Shown here: one piece after another, positions 1 through 46,767 of the stretch | Numbering within the stretch: position 1 is the first letter of the stretch | Layout of the letters: each line of letters begins with the position of its first letter | Origin: Opitutaceae bacterium | GTDB lineage: Bacteria > Verrucomicrobiota > Verrucomicrobiia > Opitutales > Opitutaceae | NCBI GenBank assembly: GCA_003140665.1 | Contig: PLKS01000060.1 | Location: 21,775 to 68,541, forward strand | DNA: 46,767 nucleotides | Reading direction: 5' to 3' | Position numbers and translations under genes: made by a program | Notes under the pieces: generated by a model | Database searches by the model: none | What the model was told of the DNA's origin: nothing | Seen by the model: the letters and a program-made list of their open reading frames with translations, nothing else

Positions 1-1079
1 GCGGCGACATGCTCGGCGAGTTTCTTTCCGTCGCGAGGAAGATGTTCCGGAGCAACTTCATCGTGATGTCCTATGACAGCATCCTTCAGACGATCGGCCT
101 GATCTCGACGGGGCTCTTCCTTTGGTTCGGCGCCCATGCCGTCATCGATGGCCGGATGACGGTCGGCGGATTCGTCGCCTTCAGCTCCCTCACGGCCATG
201 GCCTATGCGGCCATACTCAGGGCGCTTGGCGTATGGGACGGGTTCCAGATGGCGTCGGTCCTAATGAACCGGCTGAACGACATATTCGAGCAGGAGCCCG
301 AGCAGGGGAGCGACCGGTCCCGGCTCACCCCCGTGCCGAGCCTCGAAGGGCGCATCGAGCTGAGGAAGGTCGGCTTCAAGTACGGCGGCCCCGAGGCTCC
401 CTCCATCCTGAAGGACCTCTCGTTTGACATCGCCCCGGGTCAGATGGTCGCGCTCGTCGGCCGAAGCGGCAGCGGCAAGACAACCCTGATCAAGCTGCTG
501 TCCGGCCTGATGGAGGCGACCGAGGGAAGCATCCACATCGACCATCTCGACCTGAAGAGCGTGAACCATCGCGACCTGCGGCGCTTGATCGGCATGGTCC
601 TCCAGGAAAACCACCTGTTCGACGCGACGATCGCCAGCAACATTTCCTTCGGCGACAGCGAGCCGGACTTTGACCGCGTGCTCTGGTCGGCCCAGGTCGC
701 GAACGCCCACGATTTCATCATGCGGCTGCCGTTGGGATATGAGACGCGCATCGGCGAGACCGGCTTGGCCATTTCCGGGGGGCAGAAGCAGCGGATCGCG
801 ATCGCCCGTGCGGTGTACAACGATCCGCCGATTCTCATCTTCGACGAGGCCACGAGCGCCCTCGACACGGAGTCGGAGCGCACCATCCAGGAAAACATGG
901 GCCGCCTGATGTCCGGCCGCACCTGCATCGTCATCGCCCACCGGCTGAGCACGATCCGCGAGGCGAATGTGATCATCGTGCTCGAGAAGGGTGAGATCGC
1001 CGAGACGGGGACCCATGACGAGCTCATGGCCCGCCGCGGGCTCTATTTCTACCTCTCCAGCCAGCAGCTTGGAATCTGA
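1..1079 (+). CDS. ABC transporter, permease C-terminal part plus ATPase domain (HlyB/PCAT-like exporter); 5' end outside window
   Basis: Walker A GRSGSGKTT, signature ISGGQKQR, Walker B ILIFDEATSALD and H-loop AHRLST follow a partial TM domain. Frame is open through the window's left edge, so the ATG at 9 is probably internal. Confidence 0.93.
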   Translation, partial: GDMLGEFLSVARKMFRSNFIVMSYDSILQTIGLISTGLFLWFGAHAVIDGRMTVGGFVAFSSLTAMAYAAILRALGVWDGFQMASVLMNRLNDIFEQEPEQGSDRSRLTPVPSLEGRIELRKVGFKYGGPEAPSILKDLSFDIAPGQMVALVGRSGSGKTTLIKLLSGLMEATEGSIHIDHLDLKSVNHRDLRRLIGMVLQENHLFDATIASNISFGDSEPDFDRVLWSAQVANAHDFIMRLPLGYETRIGETGLAISGGQKQRIAIARAVYNDPPILIFDEATSALDTESERTIQENMGRLMSGRTCIVIAHRLSTIREANVIIVLEKGEIAETGTHDELMARRGLYFYLSSQQLGI

Positions 1080-1082
1080 CCG

Positions 1083-2279
1083 ATGCCGATGAAACCGCAC
1101 TCAAGGAGAGACGACCAGGGGGCATTGGACAGCGAGTCGCCGATGCTGAGCCGCGACCCGCCGAACTGGGTCGTCCGGGGAGCGGCATGGCTGGTCATTG
1201 CCCTGTTCGTGACGGCGCTCATCGCCTCGGCGGTCGTCCACGTGCCGGAAACGATCCGCTGCCCGTGCATCGTCGTTCCGGAGGGCGGCGCCGACCCGAT
1301 ACAATCGCCGCGCCTCGCGGTCATCCGCGAGGTGCGCGTCGGCGAGGGCCGCGAGGTTGCCGCCGGGGACGAGCTCTTTGTGCTGAGTTCCGAGGACGTC
1401 GGCGACCACGACACGCAGGCGCGCACCCTGGAGGAGGACATGACCTCCCGGAAAAGGAACCTCAAGGAGGCCGAGACCACGGATGCCGCGGACCTTGAGA
1501 TCAAGGATCACGAGATCGCGCAGGCCGACGAGGAGCTCAAGTTCCGCGAAACCTCCGTCGCCGTCGAGCGCGACCTGGTGGCCCGGTACGAGAAGCTGTC
1601 CAAGGTCGGGGTTTACTCCGAGACGGACCTGGTCCTTCGCCAGCTCGAGCTGGCGGGAGCCGAGAAGGACCTGAGCATCGCCGGCCGGACCCGCCAGCAG
1701 GTGGTCCTGCAGCGCCAGCAGATGGCCGCCGAGCAGGCGCGCCAGCGCTCCGACCAGCTCGCGGAGATCAAGAAGCTCGAGATCCGGCTGGATGCCAGCA
1801 AGCGCCAGATGGAGGATACCCAGCAGAACCTGATCTCCATACGCGCGCCCTATGACGCCGTGGTCATCTCCATGTCCGCGAACAACGCCGGAAGCGTGGT
1901 GCAGAACGGCCAGGAGCTGTGCCAGCTCGCCCGCGCGCACGGGAAGCTGAAGCTGCGCCTGCTTCTGGCCGAGGAGGGGATGCCCCGCCTCTCGGTCGGG
2001 CAGCGCGTGAGGTTCTTCGCGGAAGCCTTTCCCTACCAGCGCTACGGCACAATAACCGGGAGATTGTCCTGGATCAGCCCCTCGGCGGTCTCATCCCGCG
2101 ACGGCCAGCAGTTCGTCGCGGTGGCGACGCTGGACCGGGACGCTTTCCAGGTGGGCGGGCTCTCCGCCCCGCTGCGCGTCGGCATGAAGGGCGAGGCCCG
2201 CGTGGTGGTCGGCAGCCGCACCCTTATCGAATATGCCCTGGAGCCGGTCCGCCAGCTTCGGGAGAACCTGGGCCGCTAG
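1083..2279 (+). CDS. HlyD-family secretion/membrane-fusion protein
   Basis: Starts 3 nt after the ABC gene; one N-terminal TM helix (WVVRGAAWLVIALFVTALIASAVV), long coiled coil, and IRAPYDAVVISMSANNAGSVVQNGQELCQLA lipoyl/barrel hybrid segment. Confidence 0.9.
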   Translation: MPMKPHSRRDDQGALDSESPMLSRDPPNWVVRGAAWLVIALFVTALIASAVVHVPETIRCPCIVVPEGGADPIQSPRLAVIREVRVGEGREVAAGDELFVLSSEDVGDHDTQARTLEEDMTSRKRNLKEAETTDAADLEIKDHEIAQADEELKFRETSVAVERDLVARYEKLSKVGVYSETDLVLRQLELAGAEKDLSIAGRTRQQVVLQRQQMAAEQARQRSDQLAEIKKLEIRLDASKRQMEDTQQNLISIRAPYDAVVISMSANNAGSVVQNGQELCQLARAHGKLKLRLLLAEEGMPRLSVGQRVRFFAEAFPYQRYGTITGRLSWISPSAVSSRDGQQFVAVATLDRDAFQVGGLSAPLRVGMKGEARVVVGSRTLIEYALEPVRQLRENLGR

Positions 2280-3505
2280 CTCCCGGAGGCTCGGGCGCCG
2301 GCCGCCGGGGGCAGGAGGTTTATGACCCCGAGCTGATAGAGAAGGTAGAGCTGATTGCGCAGCTCGGGGAAGGGGACACCCAGCGGGATCCGCCGGAGCA
2401 CGCTTGAAAGCGACCGGGTGCCGTCGCCGCGGCGCAGGAGCTCGAGCTCCCATTCAGGCATGCACCACTGCATCGAGAGGTTGAGCGCGACGCTCGCAAT
2501 CGTGAACTTTCTCACGCGGTCGAGCACCTTGCCTCGCGCCCGCGGGAGCCCGACCCTGTAGAGCCGGGTGAGGGCGAGGCTCCATTTGAGCAGTGCGCGG
2601 CGCTCTTCCCAGGGGGGATTTGACTCCGCCTTCGCCGAGAAAAGCAGGCGATGAAACTGGGATGGGCTCAGCCGCTCGAGCAAGTCGCAAACCTGCGCGC
2701 GCGACCTGGGCACCAGCAGCGGATGGGAATCGCTCTCCACAAGCCGCCGAAACAGCCTCGTCGAGGCCCAGTTTCCCGCGAGGTGGAGCCCGGCCCGCCT
2801 TGCATGGAGGGCCCATTTCGAAAGGTCCAGACTGCGGTTCAGCACGCCGAACACGTCGCTTGCCAGGAACTCCGGGCCGTGGGCCGAGACCCTCGCAAGG
2901 CCGTCGGCCGATGTCACCGTGTCGCACATCTTCAGCAGGCCGCGCAACCGCGCGGAATCCTGGAATACGTTCATGTCGTACCCGAACGCGGGGAGCGCCC
3001 GCCGCAGCCGGGTGTTGACGTGCCTCGAGCCGTTGACGCCGAGGTAGAGCGCGCCGCCGGGCTTGAGGCACCGGGCGAAGTTCTTCATGACATTTTCGGT
3101 CTTGGGAATGTAGGAGAGCACGCCGTGGCAGATGATCAGATCGAAGGCGCCCCCAAGCCTGGACGGCAGGCGCAGGTCGGTCAGGTCGGCCTCGACAAAC
3201 CGGATGCCGCGCGTCTCCGTGGAGCGCCGCTGCAGGCGCCTGGCGACCGCGATGGAGCGGGCGCTGAAGTCGACCGCGACAATCTCGGCCCTGGGCAGCC
3301 TGCGGCGCAGGTTGAACGCCTCGGTGCCGTCTCCGCAGCCGGCAAGAAGGACGCGGGCCAGCGCGCCATCGCGGGCTCCGGCGCGCCCGATCGCGTCGAT
3401 CCACTCCAGGGACAGGCTCCAGGAGCGGCGCTTGAGCGCTTTGTAGTTGCCGAACGGATACGGCCGGCGTTCATAGATCTGTCGGACTCGGTCGGCGATC
3501 TTCAT
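2276..3505 (-). CDS. Class I SAM-dependent methyltransferase, architecture resembling protein-lysine methyltransferases with a methyltransferase regulatory-like region
   Basis: VLLAGCGDGTEAF motif I, AEIVAVDFSARSIAVAR motif II, FDLIICHGVLSYIP, LKPGGALYLGVNG; extended C-terminal region ending DGTRSLSSVLRRIPLGVPFPELRNQLYLLYQLGVINLLP. Convergent with hlyD; stops overlap in CTAG at 2276-2279. Confidence 0.85.
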   Translation of the reverse strand: MKIADRVRQIYERRPYPFGNYKALKRRSWSLSLEWIDAIGRAGARDGALARVLLAGCGDGTEAFNLRRRLPRAEIVAVDFSARSIAVARRLQRRSTETRGIRFVEADLTDLRLPSRLGGAFDLIICHGVLSYIPKTENVMKNFARCLKPGGALYLGVNGSRHVNTRLRRALPAFGYDMNVFQDSARLRGLLKMCDTVTSADGLARVSAHGPEFLASDVFGVLNRSLDLSKWALHARRAGLHLAGNWASTRLFRRLVESDSHPLLVPRSRAQVCDLLERLSPSQFHRLLFSAKAESNPPWEERRALLKWSLALTRLYRVGLPRARGKVLDRVRKFTIASVALNLSMQWCMPEWELELLRRGDGTRSLSSVLRRIPLGVPFPELRNQLYLLYQLGVINLLPPAAGARASGS

Positions 3506-3761: not shown

Positions 3762-3887
3762 ATGCCCAACGCAAAGAAAAAGGCCACGGCAAAACCCGCC
3801 GTCAAATTCAAGGATCTCAAGTCGAAGAAGGACCCCAAGGGTGGGCCGATATACATGACGTGGTCGAAGGCCGATAAGGGCGGCTGA
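3762..3887 (+). CDS. Small GG-motif peptide P1: MPNAKKKATAKPAVKFKDLKSKKDPKGG-PIYMTWSKADKGG (putative exported precursor peptide)
   Basis: Hand translation from ATG 3762; shares the KFKDLKSKKDPKGG block with P3-P5 and a conserved 5' leader; adjacent to exporter genes. Confidence 0.75.
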   Translation: MPNAKKKATAKPAVKFKDLKSKKDPKGGPIYMTWSKADKGG

Positions 3888-3906
3888 TCGGACGTCCGAT
3901 GGAAAA

Positions 3907-4021
3907 GGGACCTCACGGCTCCCGAAGAAAAACGTCACAACCGGTAACACCCCACCGGGGGTCGAAGAAGAGCCCCAAGGGGGGCTGGTCCGGCAGTGGT
4001 GGTGACGACCGCGAAGCTTGA
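3907..4021 (+). pseudogene. Degenerate, internally deleted copy P2 of the GG-motif peptide family (retains 5' leader and SKKSPKGG end)
   Basis: Leader GGGA..TCCC plus AACGTCACAACC (3931-3942) is intact, but the start codon and about 20 leader codons are missing. In frame, ...GSKKSPKGGWSGSGGDDREA* ends at 4021. An upstream ATG at 3899 lies in what is UTR in the paralogs. Confidence 0.6.
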
Positions 4022-4269
4022 GCCCCTAAAGGGCGCCTGACGGGCCGGGACGTTCCAGGGGGGCCCGATCCCCGGCCGAAGACAGGGATGGAGCGGCCAA
4101 GCCAAGAGCCTGGGACCGACCGGCCAGGGTTCCGCGCGCCGGCGGCCGAAGACCGTGTGGCGATACAATTCATGGCACCGCGGCGTCCCCCGGCTGTCTT
4201 CTGAATGCAATGGCGCATCCCCGAAATGACGGGCAACGCCCAACCAAGAAGCATCAACCCAAACAAGAT

Positions 4270-4419
4270 ATGGCCTCTGCTAAAAAGAAACCCACGGCAA
4301 GAACCCGGAAGCTAAGGGACCTCAGGGCAGCGAAGGACCCCAAGGGCGGTCAATTGGGGGTCGGCCGGGCGAACATCCCGGGCAGGAATTTCCTGAATCC
4401 GCAGCCCCTTCCTCCCTAG
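4270..4419 (+). CDS. Small GG-motif peptide P3: MASAKKKPTARTRKLRDLRAAKDPKGG-QLGVGRANIPGRNFLNPQPLPP
   Basis: ORF 4210..4419 trimmed to the ATG at 4270 by alignment with P1/P4/P5; conserved leader; C-terminal LNPQPLPP shared with P5. Confidence 0.75.
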   Translation: MASAKKKPTARTRKLRDLRAAKDPKGGQLGVGRANIPGRNFLNPQPLPP

Positions 4420-4560
4420 CCCCGACCATTCCGGAAGGTTTCTTCGGCGCTGGGTCCGCCCGGGAACGGGCCAGCCTTGCGTTGGGGAGCGCTTTCTGCG
4501 TTTGCAATACAGGCAGCCAAAGGGCGCTTTCGCCAGATAACATCACAACCAGATAAACAC

Positions 4561-4665
4561 ATGGCCTCGTCAAAGAAAAAAGCCTCGGCAAAAAGCAGCG
4601 TCAAGTTCAAGGACCTCAAGTCAAAGAAGAACCCGAAGGGGGGATTGAAGCACAAGACCGAGTGA
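4561..4665 (+). CDS. Small GG-motif peptide P4: MASSKKKASAKSSVKFKDLKSKKNPKGG-LKHKTE
   Basis: ORF 4477..4665 trimmed to the ATG at 4561; near-identical to P1 through the GG; conserved 5' leader; ends 20 nt before the SurA/PpiC-like gene. Confidence 0.75.
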   Translation: MASSKKKASAKSSVKFKDLKSKKNPKGGLKHKTE

Positions 4666-4685
4666 CCCGCGGGGAGCGCTAACAC

Positions 4686-5744
4686 GTGCCGCCAACGGGA
4701 GATTGCGCGGCCTTCGCCTTCAGGGACGCCACCACAAGCGTGGGAGATGTTGTCCGCGCCGGGTATTTCAGGGGCGAATTGCAGGCGTCCGCATTCGAGC
4801 TGGCGTGGAAGACGGCCTGTGAAGACGAGGCTGAGCGGTTGAGCCTGGATGCCGACGAGGTCGCCGTTGGGGCGATGATCGATAGGTTCAGGTATGAAAA
4901 CGACCTGATTTCCGCGGAGGAGACGGAGGCGTGGCTCGACAGCCGCGGACTCACGGCGGACGAGGTCCAGGCCTATTTCGAGCGATGCAACTGGCGGGAG
5001 ACCCTCGGGGAGAAAGTCGTCGCCGGGAAGGTTGATCTTTCGCGCGTCACGCCGGAGCTGCTCGGGGAGCTGCAGGTCGAGCTCCTGATGTCGGGGGCCT
5101 TCGGCCCCCTCGCGACCGGGCTGGCCCGCCGCCTCGTCGCGCGCTCCGCTACGGAGGGACCGGTCGACGCGGGACAGGTGGAGGCGGAGCGCGCACGATT
5201 CCTGGCGCGCTCCGGCCTGGATCCTGAACGCGTCGCAGGATGGCTGGCCAATCTCGAACGCGGCGAGGACTGGCTCGGGCGGATGCTTGAAATGGAGGCA
5301 TCGTACCGCCTGACGTGCGCCGCGGTCCTGACGCCGGGAAGGCTGTCGCAGGCGCTTGCGGCGGCGCGCCTTCCGCTCACCCGCCTTGAGGTGGAGACCG
5401 TGGAATTCGATTCCGCCGATGCCGCGCGCGAGGGGCACCTGTGCGTCCGCGACGACGGCCTGTCGCTGGAGGAGGTCAGCCGCGAATCGCGCTATCCGTT
5501 CAAGCGGCTGGAGTTTCTGGCCGAGGATCTCCCCGAGGAGCGGCGGCAGAAGCTGCTCTGCGCCGGGATAGGAGAGGTCATGGAACCCGTGTCGGACAGC
5601 GGCGTCTTTCACCTGAGCCGCGTGCTCGGAAAGGCCGAGCCCAATCTCGCCGACCCGTCCGTCAGGAGAAGGGTTGAGCAGCGGATTCTGGACACCTACT
5701 TTTCCGAAGCCGGCGCGAAGGACATCCGCTGGATAATCCTCTGA
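4686..5744 (+). CDS. SurA/PpiC (parvulin)-related protein without signal peptide, candidate peptide-maturation protein
   Basis: GTG start 4686; alpha-helical SurA-N-like region, then a degenerate parvulin-like C-terminus (LSLEEVSRESRYPFKRLEFLAEDLPEERRQKLLCAGIGEVMEPVSDSGVFHLSRVLGKAEPNLADPSVRRRVEQRIL). N-terminus MPPTGDCAAFAFRD is not a signal peptide. Confidence 0.65.
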   Translation: MPPTGDCAAFAFRDATTSVGDVVRAGYFRGELQASAFELAWKTACEDEAERLSLDADEVAVGAMIDRFRYENDLISAEETEAWLDSRGLTADEVQAYFERCNWRETLGEKVVAGKVDLSRVTPELLGELQVELLMSGAFGPLATGLARRLVARSATEGPVDAGQVEAERARFLARSGLDPERVAGWLANLERGEDWLGRMLEMEASYRLTCAAVLTPGRLSQALAAARLPLTRLEVETVEFDSADAAREGHLCVRDDGLSLEEVSRESRYPFKRLEFLAEDLPEERRQKLLCAGIGEVMEPVSDSGVFHLSRVLGKAEPNLADPSVRRRVEQRILDTYFSEAGAKDIRWIIL

Positions 5745-5790
5745 ATCGTCGCTCCGTCCGCTGACGGACCCTGTCCCGGCCGGCTGCCGA

Positions 5791-5922
5791 TCAGAACTTC
5801 TCGACCTTTAGCGGCGGAAGGGGCTGGGGGTTCAAGCCGCCCTTGGGGCCTTCCTTGCTCGGCTTGAAGTCCTTGAAACCAACGTGTGGCTTTTTCTTGG
5901 CGATTTTCTTCTTGGATGCCAT
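5791..5922 (-). CDS. Small GG-motif peptide P5: MASKKKIAKKKPHVGFKDFKPSKEGPKGG-LNPQPLPPLKVEKF
   Basis: ORF 5791..5985(-) trimmed to the ATG at 5922 (MASKKK, as in P3/P4); shares K-rich leader, FKDFKxSKxxPKGG and LNPQPLPP; preceded by a near-consensus promoter. Confidence 0.75.
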   Translation of the reverse strand: MASKKKIAKKKPHVGFKDFKPSKEGPKGGLNPQPLPPLKVEKF

Positions 5923-44741: not shown

Positions 44742-45857
44742 ATGGCGTCCATGCGCGTTAAGCTCGCCCTTTCGACGCTGTGCGAAAACCCCGGCAGGCG
44801 CACGGGGTTGAGCACCCTGTTCCCCGAATTCGTGGCGCACGCCCGGCGCACCCACCCGGATGTCTCGTGGATCGTGTTCGCCGGAAGGGACGCGCCCTGG
44901 CCGCACGACGACCCCGATGTGGAGGTGTGCCGGGATTTTCCATCAAATGAGCGGCCCCTTCGGCGCCTCATGGCGGACCATTTCGGGGTGGCGCCGGAGG
45001 CGCGCCGGCGCGGCGCGGCCGCGCTCCTGACAGTGGGATTCTTTCCGCTTCGGTCCGCCGCGCTTCCCGTCGCGATGCACGTGGTCGCCGTGGGCCCCGC
45101 GAAGGGGGGGGGCGCCATTCGGGCGGCGTACCGCCGATGGGCCATGGCCCGGGGCCTGGGTCGGGCGGTCCTGATCATCGCCAATTCCGCGTGGACGCGG
45201 TCGCGCCTCGCGGCCGCCCGGGCGCCCGTCATCGTGAGCCCCGAGGGACTGCAGCACGACCGGTTCAACCCGGTCGGTCCCCGGGGTGCGCCCGGGATTC
45301 CCGCGCGGTATCTCCTCTGGGCCTCCAATCTCTACCCCTACAAGCGCGCCGAACTGGCCCTCGCCGCATATGCGGGCCTTTCGCCGGCTCGTCGCGCGGA
45401 GCTTCCGCTGGTGGTCGCCGGGGGCGACTGGGGCGGCGGGCGCGTGCGGGCGCAGGCCGCCGCATGTCGGCTGGGGATAGGCGCCGATGTCCGGTTTCTC
45501 GGCTGGGTTGAGGACGGGGTCCTGCCGTCGCTTTACCGGGGCGCGCATGCGCACATCCTTTCCACCGCGCAGGAATCCTTTGGGCGCAGCGTTCTGGAGG
45601 CGATGGCCTGCGGGTGCCCAAGCGTCATCCAGGACCTTCCCGTTCTCAGGGAGGTGGCCGGCGATTGCGCGGTGTACTCCGACTACGCCACCCCCCGCGC
45701 TGCCACCGCCGCCCTGGAGCTGGTCTGCTCGGACGTCGCCTTCAGGGAGCGGCTGAGCGCCGCGGGGATCGAGCGGTCCCGGCAGTTCAGTTTCGAGCGG
45801 CTCGCCCGCGAGCGCGTCGGGGCCATCCTTGAGAGGCTGGGGAAGGCGGCCCCATGA
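44742..45857 (+). CDS. Glycosyltransferase family 4
   Basis: [69 protein letters not shown]. Confidence 0.9.
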
Positions 45858-46767
45858 CGGCTGCATCAAACAGGCTCAGGGCGGCGCCCGCCGTCGCCTG
45901 CGGGTTGGCCGGCCTCGTAGTCTTCCAGTTCTGGGGAAATGCGACCCGGGGTTACATCGCCACCAACTCGCTCTTCCATTGGTGGTTTTACCAATGGGTG
46001 AATCCCGACTCCGAGACCGAGCACGCGTGGCTCATCCTTGCCCTGAGCGCCTTCCTGTTCTGGAAAAACCTCCGGCGCGAGGACGGCGGGGGTGGCTCCG
46101 AGGTGGGCAAGGCCGCTTCGGCGCTCCTTTGCGGCCTGCTGCTTCACGCGATCGGATACATCGCCCAGCAGCCGAGGATCTCGATCGTGGCGCTGCTCCT
46201 GTACGCCTGGGGGGTTCTCGCGCTTGCGGGCGGCGGGCGGTGGGGCAGGTCCGCCGCGTTTCCGATGGCCTTCATGGTGTTCGCAATCCCGGTCAACGCG
46301 CTCGATACTGTGGGCTTCTGGCTCAGGATGTGGGTGGTCGACGCCGGGGCGCGGATCGCGCACGCCGTTGGAATCGGCGTGATTCGCTCGGGCACGCAGC
46401 TTCTGGCGCCGGACGGCCGCTACCAGTACGACGTGGTCGCCGCCTGCTCGGGAATCCGGTCGCTGATGGCCCTCGCCGCCCTGTCGCTCTTCATCGGCTA
46501 CCTCTGGTTCCGGCCCGCCTGGCTGAGGGGGGCGATGCTTCTTCTGAGCCTCCCGCTGGTGTACCTGGGCAATGTCCTGCGCATCTCATCGATCATTGTC
46601 GCCGCGCAGTGGGGCGGGCAGGCCTGGGGCGACCGCGTCCACGACGTGATGGGATTCGGCGTCTTCATCATCGTTGTCGGGGGGATCGCCGCGGTCGCGG
46701 ACGCCATTGCGCGGGGCAATCCGCGCTGGACCGGCGAACCCGCGGGCCGGGCGCCCGCCGCTTCCGC
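45854..46767 (+). CDS. Exosortase/archaeosortase family protein; 3' end outside window
   Basis: ATG 45854 overlaps the GT4 stop; polytopic; catalytic triad context [11 protein letters not shown] (Cys), NVLRISSI (Arg), DRVHDVMGF (His). Frame open to window end. Confidence 0.9.

Follow-up and report, generated by a model that had tools for sequence, protein, structure and literature searches.

A basic double-glycine leader family linked to a cNMP-C39-ABC exporter in Opitutaceae and other Verrucomicrobiota

What do the very short, lysine-rich open reading frames (ORFs) beside the ABC and HlyD genes of an Opitutaceae genome encode? The window, as we call the whole stretch of DNA analysed here (46,767 nucleotides; G000:C147:21775-68541), contains four intact ORFs of this kind (P1, P3, P4 and P5), which an earlier note had read as precursors exported by a double-glycine system. 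These and their neighbours are listed in Table 1.

Table 1. Features of the operon region in the window, and places of the intact leader copies in the genome.
Feature	Position	Strand	Description
Exporter, C-terminal part	1-1079	+	ABC_tran (ATPase) in the window
HlyD-type membrane fusion protein	1083-2279	+	TIGR01843 2.7e-41, below cut-off; PF13437 4.8e-18
SAM methyltransferase	2276-3505	-	profile and fold search; resembles PKMT1, PKMT2, Rv2067c
P1 precursor	3762-3887	+	41 aa; leader to PKGG; core PIYMTWSKADKGG
P2, decayed copy	3899-4021	+	GSKKSPKGGWSGSGGDDREA; remnant only ..KKSPKGGWSGSGGDDREA; E 1.4 with leave-window-out profile
P3 precursor	4270-4419	+	49 aa; core QLGVGRANIPGRNFLNPQPLPP
P4 precursor	4561-4665	+	34 aa; core LKHKTE
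SurA/PrsA-like protein	4686-5744	+	distant relative of TIGR04500 (PpiC_rel_mature)
P5 precursor	5791-5922	- (opposite strand)	43 aa; core LNPQPLPPLKVEKF
Intact leader copies	window (four); C234, C116, C229, C212, C220, C238, C63, C248, C22 (one each); C243 (two)		

The four intact ORFs share a block approximating MxSxKKKxxAKxxVKFKDLKSKK(D/N)PKGG and diverge beyond it. The basic leader motif that they have in common with the decayed copy P2 is (I/V)x(F/V/L)(K/R)DLK(S/P)KK(D/N)(P/A)KGG. The common Lys-rich GG block claimed for them exceeds chance: a leave-window-out profile, trained solely on leader copies from other contigs of the same genome, retrieved the four at E-values of 9.9e-17, 6.6e-15, 9.1e-8 and 1.1e-7, against 1.4 for the next ORF of the window and 0.018 for the best match among 20 shuffled windows. 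With a profile built from other species only, P4, P1 and P3 were matched at 2e-7 to 7e-5, and P5 at just 0.28. Separately from the leader, a tail motif (F)LNPQPLPP recurs in P3, P5 and an ORF of another Opitutaceae MAG (L059 9840-9974+), standing at the start or end of otherwise unlike cores; the P3 tail end, FLNPQPLPP, is identical in L059. We found no paper on NPQPLPP in a literature search.

A profile search of the genome, as the earlier note had proposed for the leader, located 16 leader places with at least 15 intact ORFs on 11 contigs, at least 11 of them outside the window; the copy on C232 is interrupted by an assembly gap. Most copies are unlinked to the exporter. Among these paralogues leader identity averages 61% (31% when shuffled), while tail identity averages 30% (29% when shuffled), i.e., the tails are unrelated. 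The picture of a conserved N-terminal block ending in GG and followed by variable tails, drawn at first from the window, extends to the genome.

The exporter to which these peptides had been assigned, at 1-2279, proved to be of the right type, but the window edge cuts it; on the far side of a 2-N assembly gap its ORF extends for about 2.0 kb further upstream on contig C147. This upstream part encodes two cNMP-binding domains (8.9e-47), a Peptidase_C39 domain (PF03412, 1.2e-33) and the beginning of the ABC membrane domain. The peptidase that had been suspected outside the window is therefore fused to the ABC transporter in one ORF, with its Cys and His intact. The gap sits where relatives carry about 28 additional residues; exporter relatives in other genera are complete, at 1034-1047 aa. 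The C39 Cys and His are kept in all 41 sequences scanned, some records being counted twice. At the third triad position, 40 sequences have Asp and the exporter of this genome has Asn. This change (VANPASG), seen in this genome alone, is either real or a single-base error. Papain-type enzymes use Asn in that triad role, so by analogy it is possible that the Asn-bearing C39 domain is catalytically active. A search for plasmid-borne relatives of the exporter gave only two distant matches in Caballeronia, at 29% identity.

We surveyed 46 loci with the SurA-like gene. They come from Opitutaceae, other Verrucomicrobiota MAGs (many of them Chthoniobacterales, including Candidatus Udaeobacter), one Acidobacteriota MAG and three Gemmatimonadota MAGs. 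The common order is SurA-like, cNMP-C39-ABC, HlyD and often then a sigma-54-type activator; in the Opitutaceae variant the SurA-like gene follows the peptides. Basic GG peptides adjoin the operon in most loci whose contig extends far enough, and a leader HMM run over the surveyed loci gave 33 ORFs at E<0.01, against zero in shuffled DNA. Operon-adjacent leader homologs occur in other genera and in the Acidobacteriota MAG, which bears out the association of homologs with the exporter. No basic leader peptides were found in the Gemmatimonadota loci or in L090.

Co-occurrence of leader and exporter, raised earlier as a check, is strict at the level of the class. Among 287 genomes the SurA-like gene, the close exporter and the leader were each found in the identical six, so that the leader is present in 6/6 exporter genomes and in 0/281 others. 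In a sample of 390 genomes from the phylum it is present in four of eight exporter genomes and in none of the 382 others. Both sets of counts are to be read with the points that the class and phylum samples share genomes and that exporter-linked peptides formed part of the training set of the broader leader model. When the model was trained on this genome alone, its two other positives were both exporter genomes. The four leader-negative exporter genomes of the phylum sample carry distant exporters, at 37-42% identity, and inspection of the surroundings of three distant cNMP-C39 exporters of the phylum (G363, G371, G504) revealed no basic-leader peptides.

Two further genes of the window may act on the peptides. 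The SurA-like protein matches TIGR04500 only partially (1.4e-7), with 31 bits where the family cut-off is 180; its AlphaFold model (pLDDT 89.5) matches SurA and PrsA in Foldseek, and a putative parvulin-type region in its C-terminal half is suggested by matches to single parvulin domains. TIGR04500 proteins are partner proteins in peptide maturation, and one of them, MirC, is an essential partner in the biosynthesis of the graspetide rosaritide (PMC13097080); a part in maturation is thereby supported for the SurA-like protein too. MirC is likewise a chaperone-type protein resembling SurA, and its gene adjoins a PCAT gene in a locus for peptide maturation. Since TIGR04500 partners occur in graspetide systems, a graspetide reading was considered and rejected: unlike in the MirC system, the TIGR04187 ATP-grasp synthetase was found in none of the six genomes (E <= 0.001). 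For the methyltransferase, PKMT1 and PKMT2 of Rickettsia and Rv2067c were among the best profile matches and the top fold matches, yet identity in the fold alignments is 14-19%. From this likeness to protein lysine methyltransferases, methylation of the Lys-rich peptides is an attractive guess. The methyltransferase is present in part of the loci only, being linked in seven of those surveyed.

Going beyond the earlier note, which treated the peptides of the window, we found that exporter-unlinked copies make up most of the family and that some of them adjoin RiPP-modifying enzymes. This concerns three unlinked copies at two loci. The C248 copy has a Ser/Thr/Cys-containing core, KDVLSISPTNTCSTTPTCRT, and only a few bases separate it from the gene for a RamC-type, lanthionine-synthetase-like lyase/kinase downstream; the pair lies at L147 4349-5931+. 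The enzyme has RamC_N (PF25816 at 2e-37) plus kinase and scores 298 bits with NF038150 against a cut-off of 650; its ORF stops without a cyclase domain, the third domain, besides lyase and kinase, that would be expected next to a class III/IV lanthipeptide. On C243 (L149 3656-8784-) the two copies, whose cores carry Cys close to their end, are flanked on either side by a LanB-C (PF14028/TIGR03891) protein, one of which scores below the TIGR03891 cut-off. Upstream of one of the two LanB-C genes lies an 888-aa ORF (L149 6118-8784-) that looks by eye like a divergent LanB; it had no Pfam or PDB sequence match and was therefore left out of the evidence. The C248 and C243 neighbourhoods indicate that the same leader precedes cores in differing enzymatic contexts. 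They are the strongest hint of a shared RiPP leader, as opposed to a single bacteriocin family, and with such enzymes beside some copies, some of the products are probably modified. A single leader may in this way serve several maturation routes that all lead to one exporter.

Given a shared leader, unrelated tails and the confinement of the leader to exporter genomes, the small ORFs very probably encode precursors of secreted peptides with a basic leader, processed and exported via the adjacent cNMP-C39-ABC exporter. At the level of sequence the earlier export interpretation is well supported overall. Several observations count against it, namely Lys/Arg at leader positions -7 and -12, Asn in the C39 triad, and the Gemmatimonadota loci and some distant exporters, near which no such peptides were found. 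The ORFs might instead encode intracellular, nucleic-acid-binding or ribosome-associated proteins, in which the GG and the proximity of the exporter are incidental. Their Lys-rich composition and a leader net charge of +7 to +11 would suit such proteins, but the GG is invariant and followed by sequence unrelated among copies, the leader co-occurs strictly with the C39 exporter and was found in none of the 281 exporter-less genomes of the class, and RiPP enzymes adjoin some copies. We consider an intracellular role very improbable.

Taking the leader family, the C39 domain, the conserved operon, the co-occurrence and the neighbouring RiPP enzymes as sequence-level results, we infer recognition, cleavage, export, gating, modification and biological role of the secreted peptides along the following lines. 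The N-terminal basic leader of about 28 residues would be an address tag for the C39 domain of the adjacent exporter, with a short variable core behind it. Holding or presenting the precursor is the probable task of the SurA/PrsA-like protein. The C39 domain would cut after Gly-Gly while the core is exported through the ABC channel, HlyD and a presumed TolC-type pore, and the cNMP domains probably gate the exporter through a second messenger. The precursor gene would have been copied around the genome, all copies presumably sharing one exporter, and some copies would have their own modification enzymes (the lanthionine-synthetase-like lyase/kinase, LanB-C), while the methyltransferase may methylate lysines. 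The products would comprise modified as well as unmodified peptides, with competition or signalling between bacteria a likelier role than one within the cell.

The leader departs from the rules for double-glycine leaders in its chemistry. Canonical leaders (ComC, LahA, microcin type) likewise belong to short precursors with a conserved GG-ending leader, a variable core and a C39 exporter, but their hydrophobic residues stand at -15, -12, -7 and -4. In 52 basic leaders, chosen by the pattern D-L-x7-GG, by which the D and L are thus fixed, hydrophobic residues stand at -15 (mostly Ile/Val), -13 and -10; Lys/Arg predominates at -12 and -7, and there is Lys at -6, Asp/Asn at -5 and mostly Pro/Ala/Val at -4. 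The canonical hydrophobic rule at -4, -7 and -12 (and -15) does not hold for them, in keeping with the earlier proposal of an unusual, non-ELxxVxGG leader class. Nine precursors gave no match in NCBIfam, including its NHLP, Nif11 and other curated leader families, and the four window precursors none above cut-off in Pfam. No paper describing the basic leader was found in a literature search, which left most subscription journals outside its coverage. Judged by sequence, the leader is a new class inside the known double-glycine/C39 export principle.

Known C39 domains read -4, -7, -12 and -15; LahT150 no longer works when the first three are missing. The leader might then mainly tag precursors for the SurA-like protein or the modifying enzymes, with cleavage and export left to another system and the C39 exporter serving different substrates. 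This would fit a leader without the canonical C39 contact positions, the weak resemblance of a MirC domain to a RiPP recognition element (PMC13097080) and the Asp-to-Asn change in the exporter of this genome. It does not fit the identical distributions of exporter and leader or the invariant GG, and the pneumococcal exporter RtgAB provides a precedent for C39 exporters that recognise N-terminal leader motifs of a non-canonical type (PMC7018657). We rate a leader meant for other partners as very improbable.

Upstream DNA is conserved in many of the leader copies, including a AAACGTCAYAAC-like block immediately before the start codon. Across codons 14-28 in a set of 12 paralogous leaders, the differences counted per codon pair come to 0.14, 0.12 and 0.47 at codon positions 1, 2 and 3, which makes the third position three to four times more variable than the other two in this conserved half of the leader. 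The precursor genes thus appear to have been duplicated together with their upstream region, with the leader protein under selection. An IS1380-type transposase fragment adjoins the dispersed copy on C234 (L148 1-471-), a possible hint of how copies spread. That the copies are decaying, non-functional repeats spread by a mobile element, as their dispersal with conserved upstream DNA, the decayed window copy and the IS1380 fragment might suggest, is scarcely credible in view of the third-position bias, the 15 intact ORFs and a leader protein kept across families and phyla.

Some of the nearest known systems are cyanobacterial. Bacteriocin groups I and II have a long-type CAP_ED-C39-ABC transporter, HlyD and SurA (Wang et al. 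2011, PMC3140520), i.e., likewise an exporter with an extra N-terminal cyclic-nucleotide-binding region and C39, a SurA-like protein and several short GG precursors. Their NHLP/N11P precursors are mostly negative, with an acidic GG motif (PMC3140520), whereas the Opitutaceae leader has a strong positive charge, D standing at -11, L at -10 and K at -6, and belongs mostly to exporter-unlinked copies. HetC of Nostoc, which controls cell differentiation, is likewise a peptidase-containing ABC exporter with an N-terminal cNMP-binding domain, and its substrate is an acknowledged open question (PMC10986499). HetC has no membrane fusion protein nearby, whereas the Opitutaceae exporter has a linked HlyD and candidate substrates.

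A broader idea seems to us evenly balanced between right and wrong: that one basic Gly-Gly leader is a universal address tag in soil Verrucomicrobiota, borne by scattered genes that differ in their cores and in some cases have modification enzymes of their own (lanthionine-type, LanB-type, lysine methylation), all served by one second-messenger-gated cNMP-C39 exporter. If true, the tagged peptides would be a first candidate substrate class for exporters of HetC architecture. Here the candidate substrates tied by distribution to a cNMP and C39 exporter have a leader that falls outside the standard rule of recognition, and searches for ELxxVxGG would therefore miss the family. If confirmed, this would add a leader family for secreted, partly modified peptides of soil Verrucomicrobiota, including Udaeobacter MAGs. 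With short precursors and a purified C39 domain, recognition would be directly testable.

The surveyed loci contain other peptides as well. A second, more conserved precursor kind, IRLDDLIPKxNVxGGxQLLFGATD, often adjoins the variable ones and was seen beside the sigma-54-type activator (L083 14602-14790+, L087 7362-7544+, L078 10153-10338+). Unlike in the variable kind, its leader and core are both conserved, so it could be a signal. Sigma-54 promoters, sought because of the linked activator, were represented by one near-consensus site in 15 loci, away from the operon. Cores of Gly/His repeats occur in relatives (AQGHAAQGH.., TGHTGHIGHTGH and YHGHNTG..; L150 393-569+, L084 16736-16867+ and L061 10680-10814+, respectively) and might bind metals. 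At the far end of the window, an ORF that runs out of it (45854-46767+) resembles an exosortase by eye.
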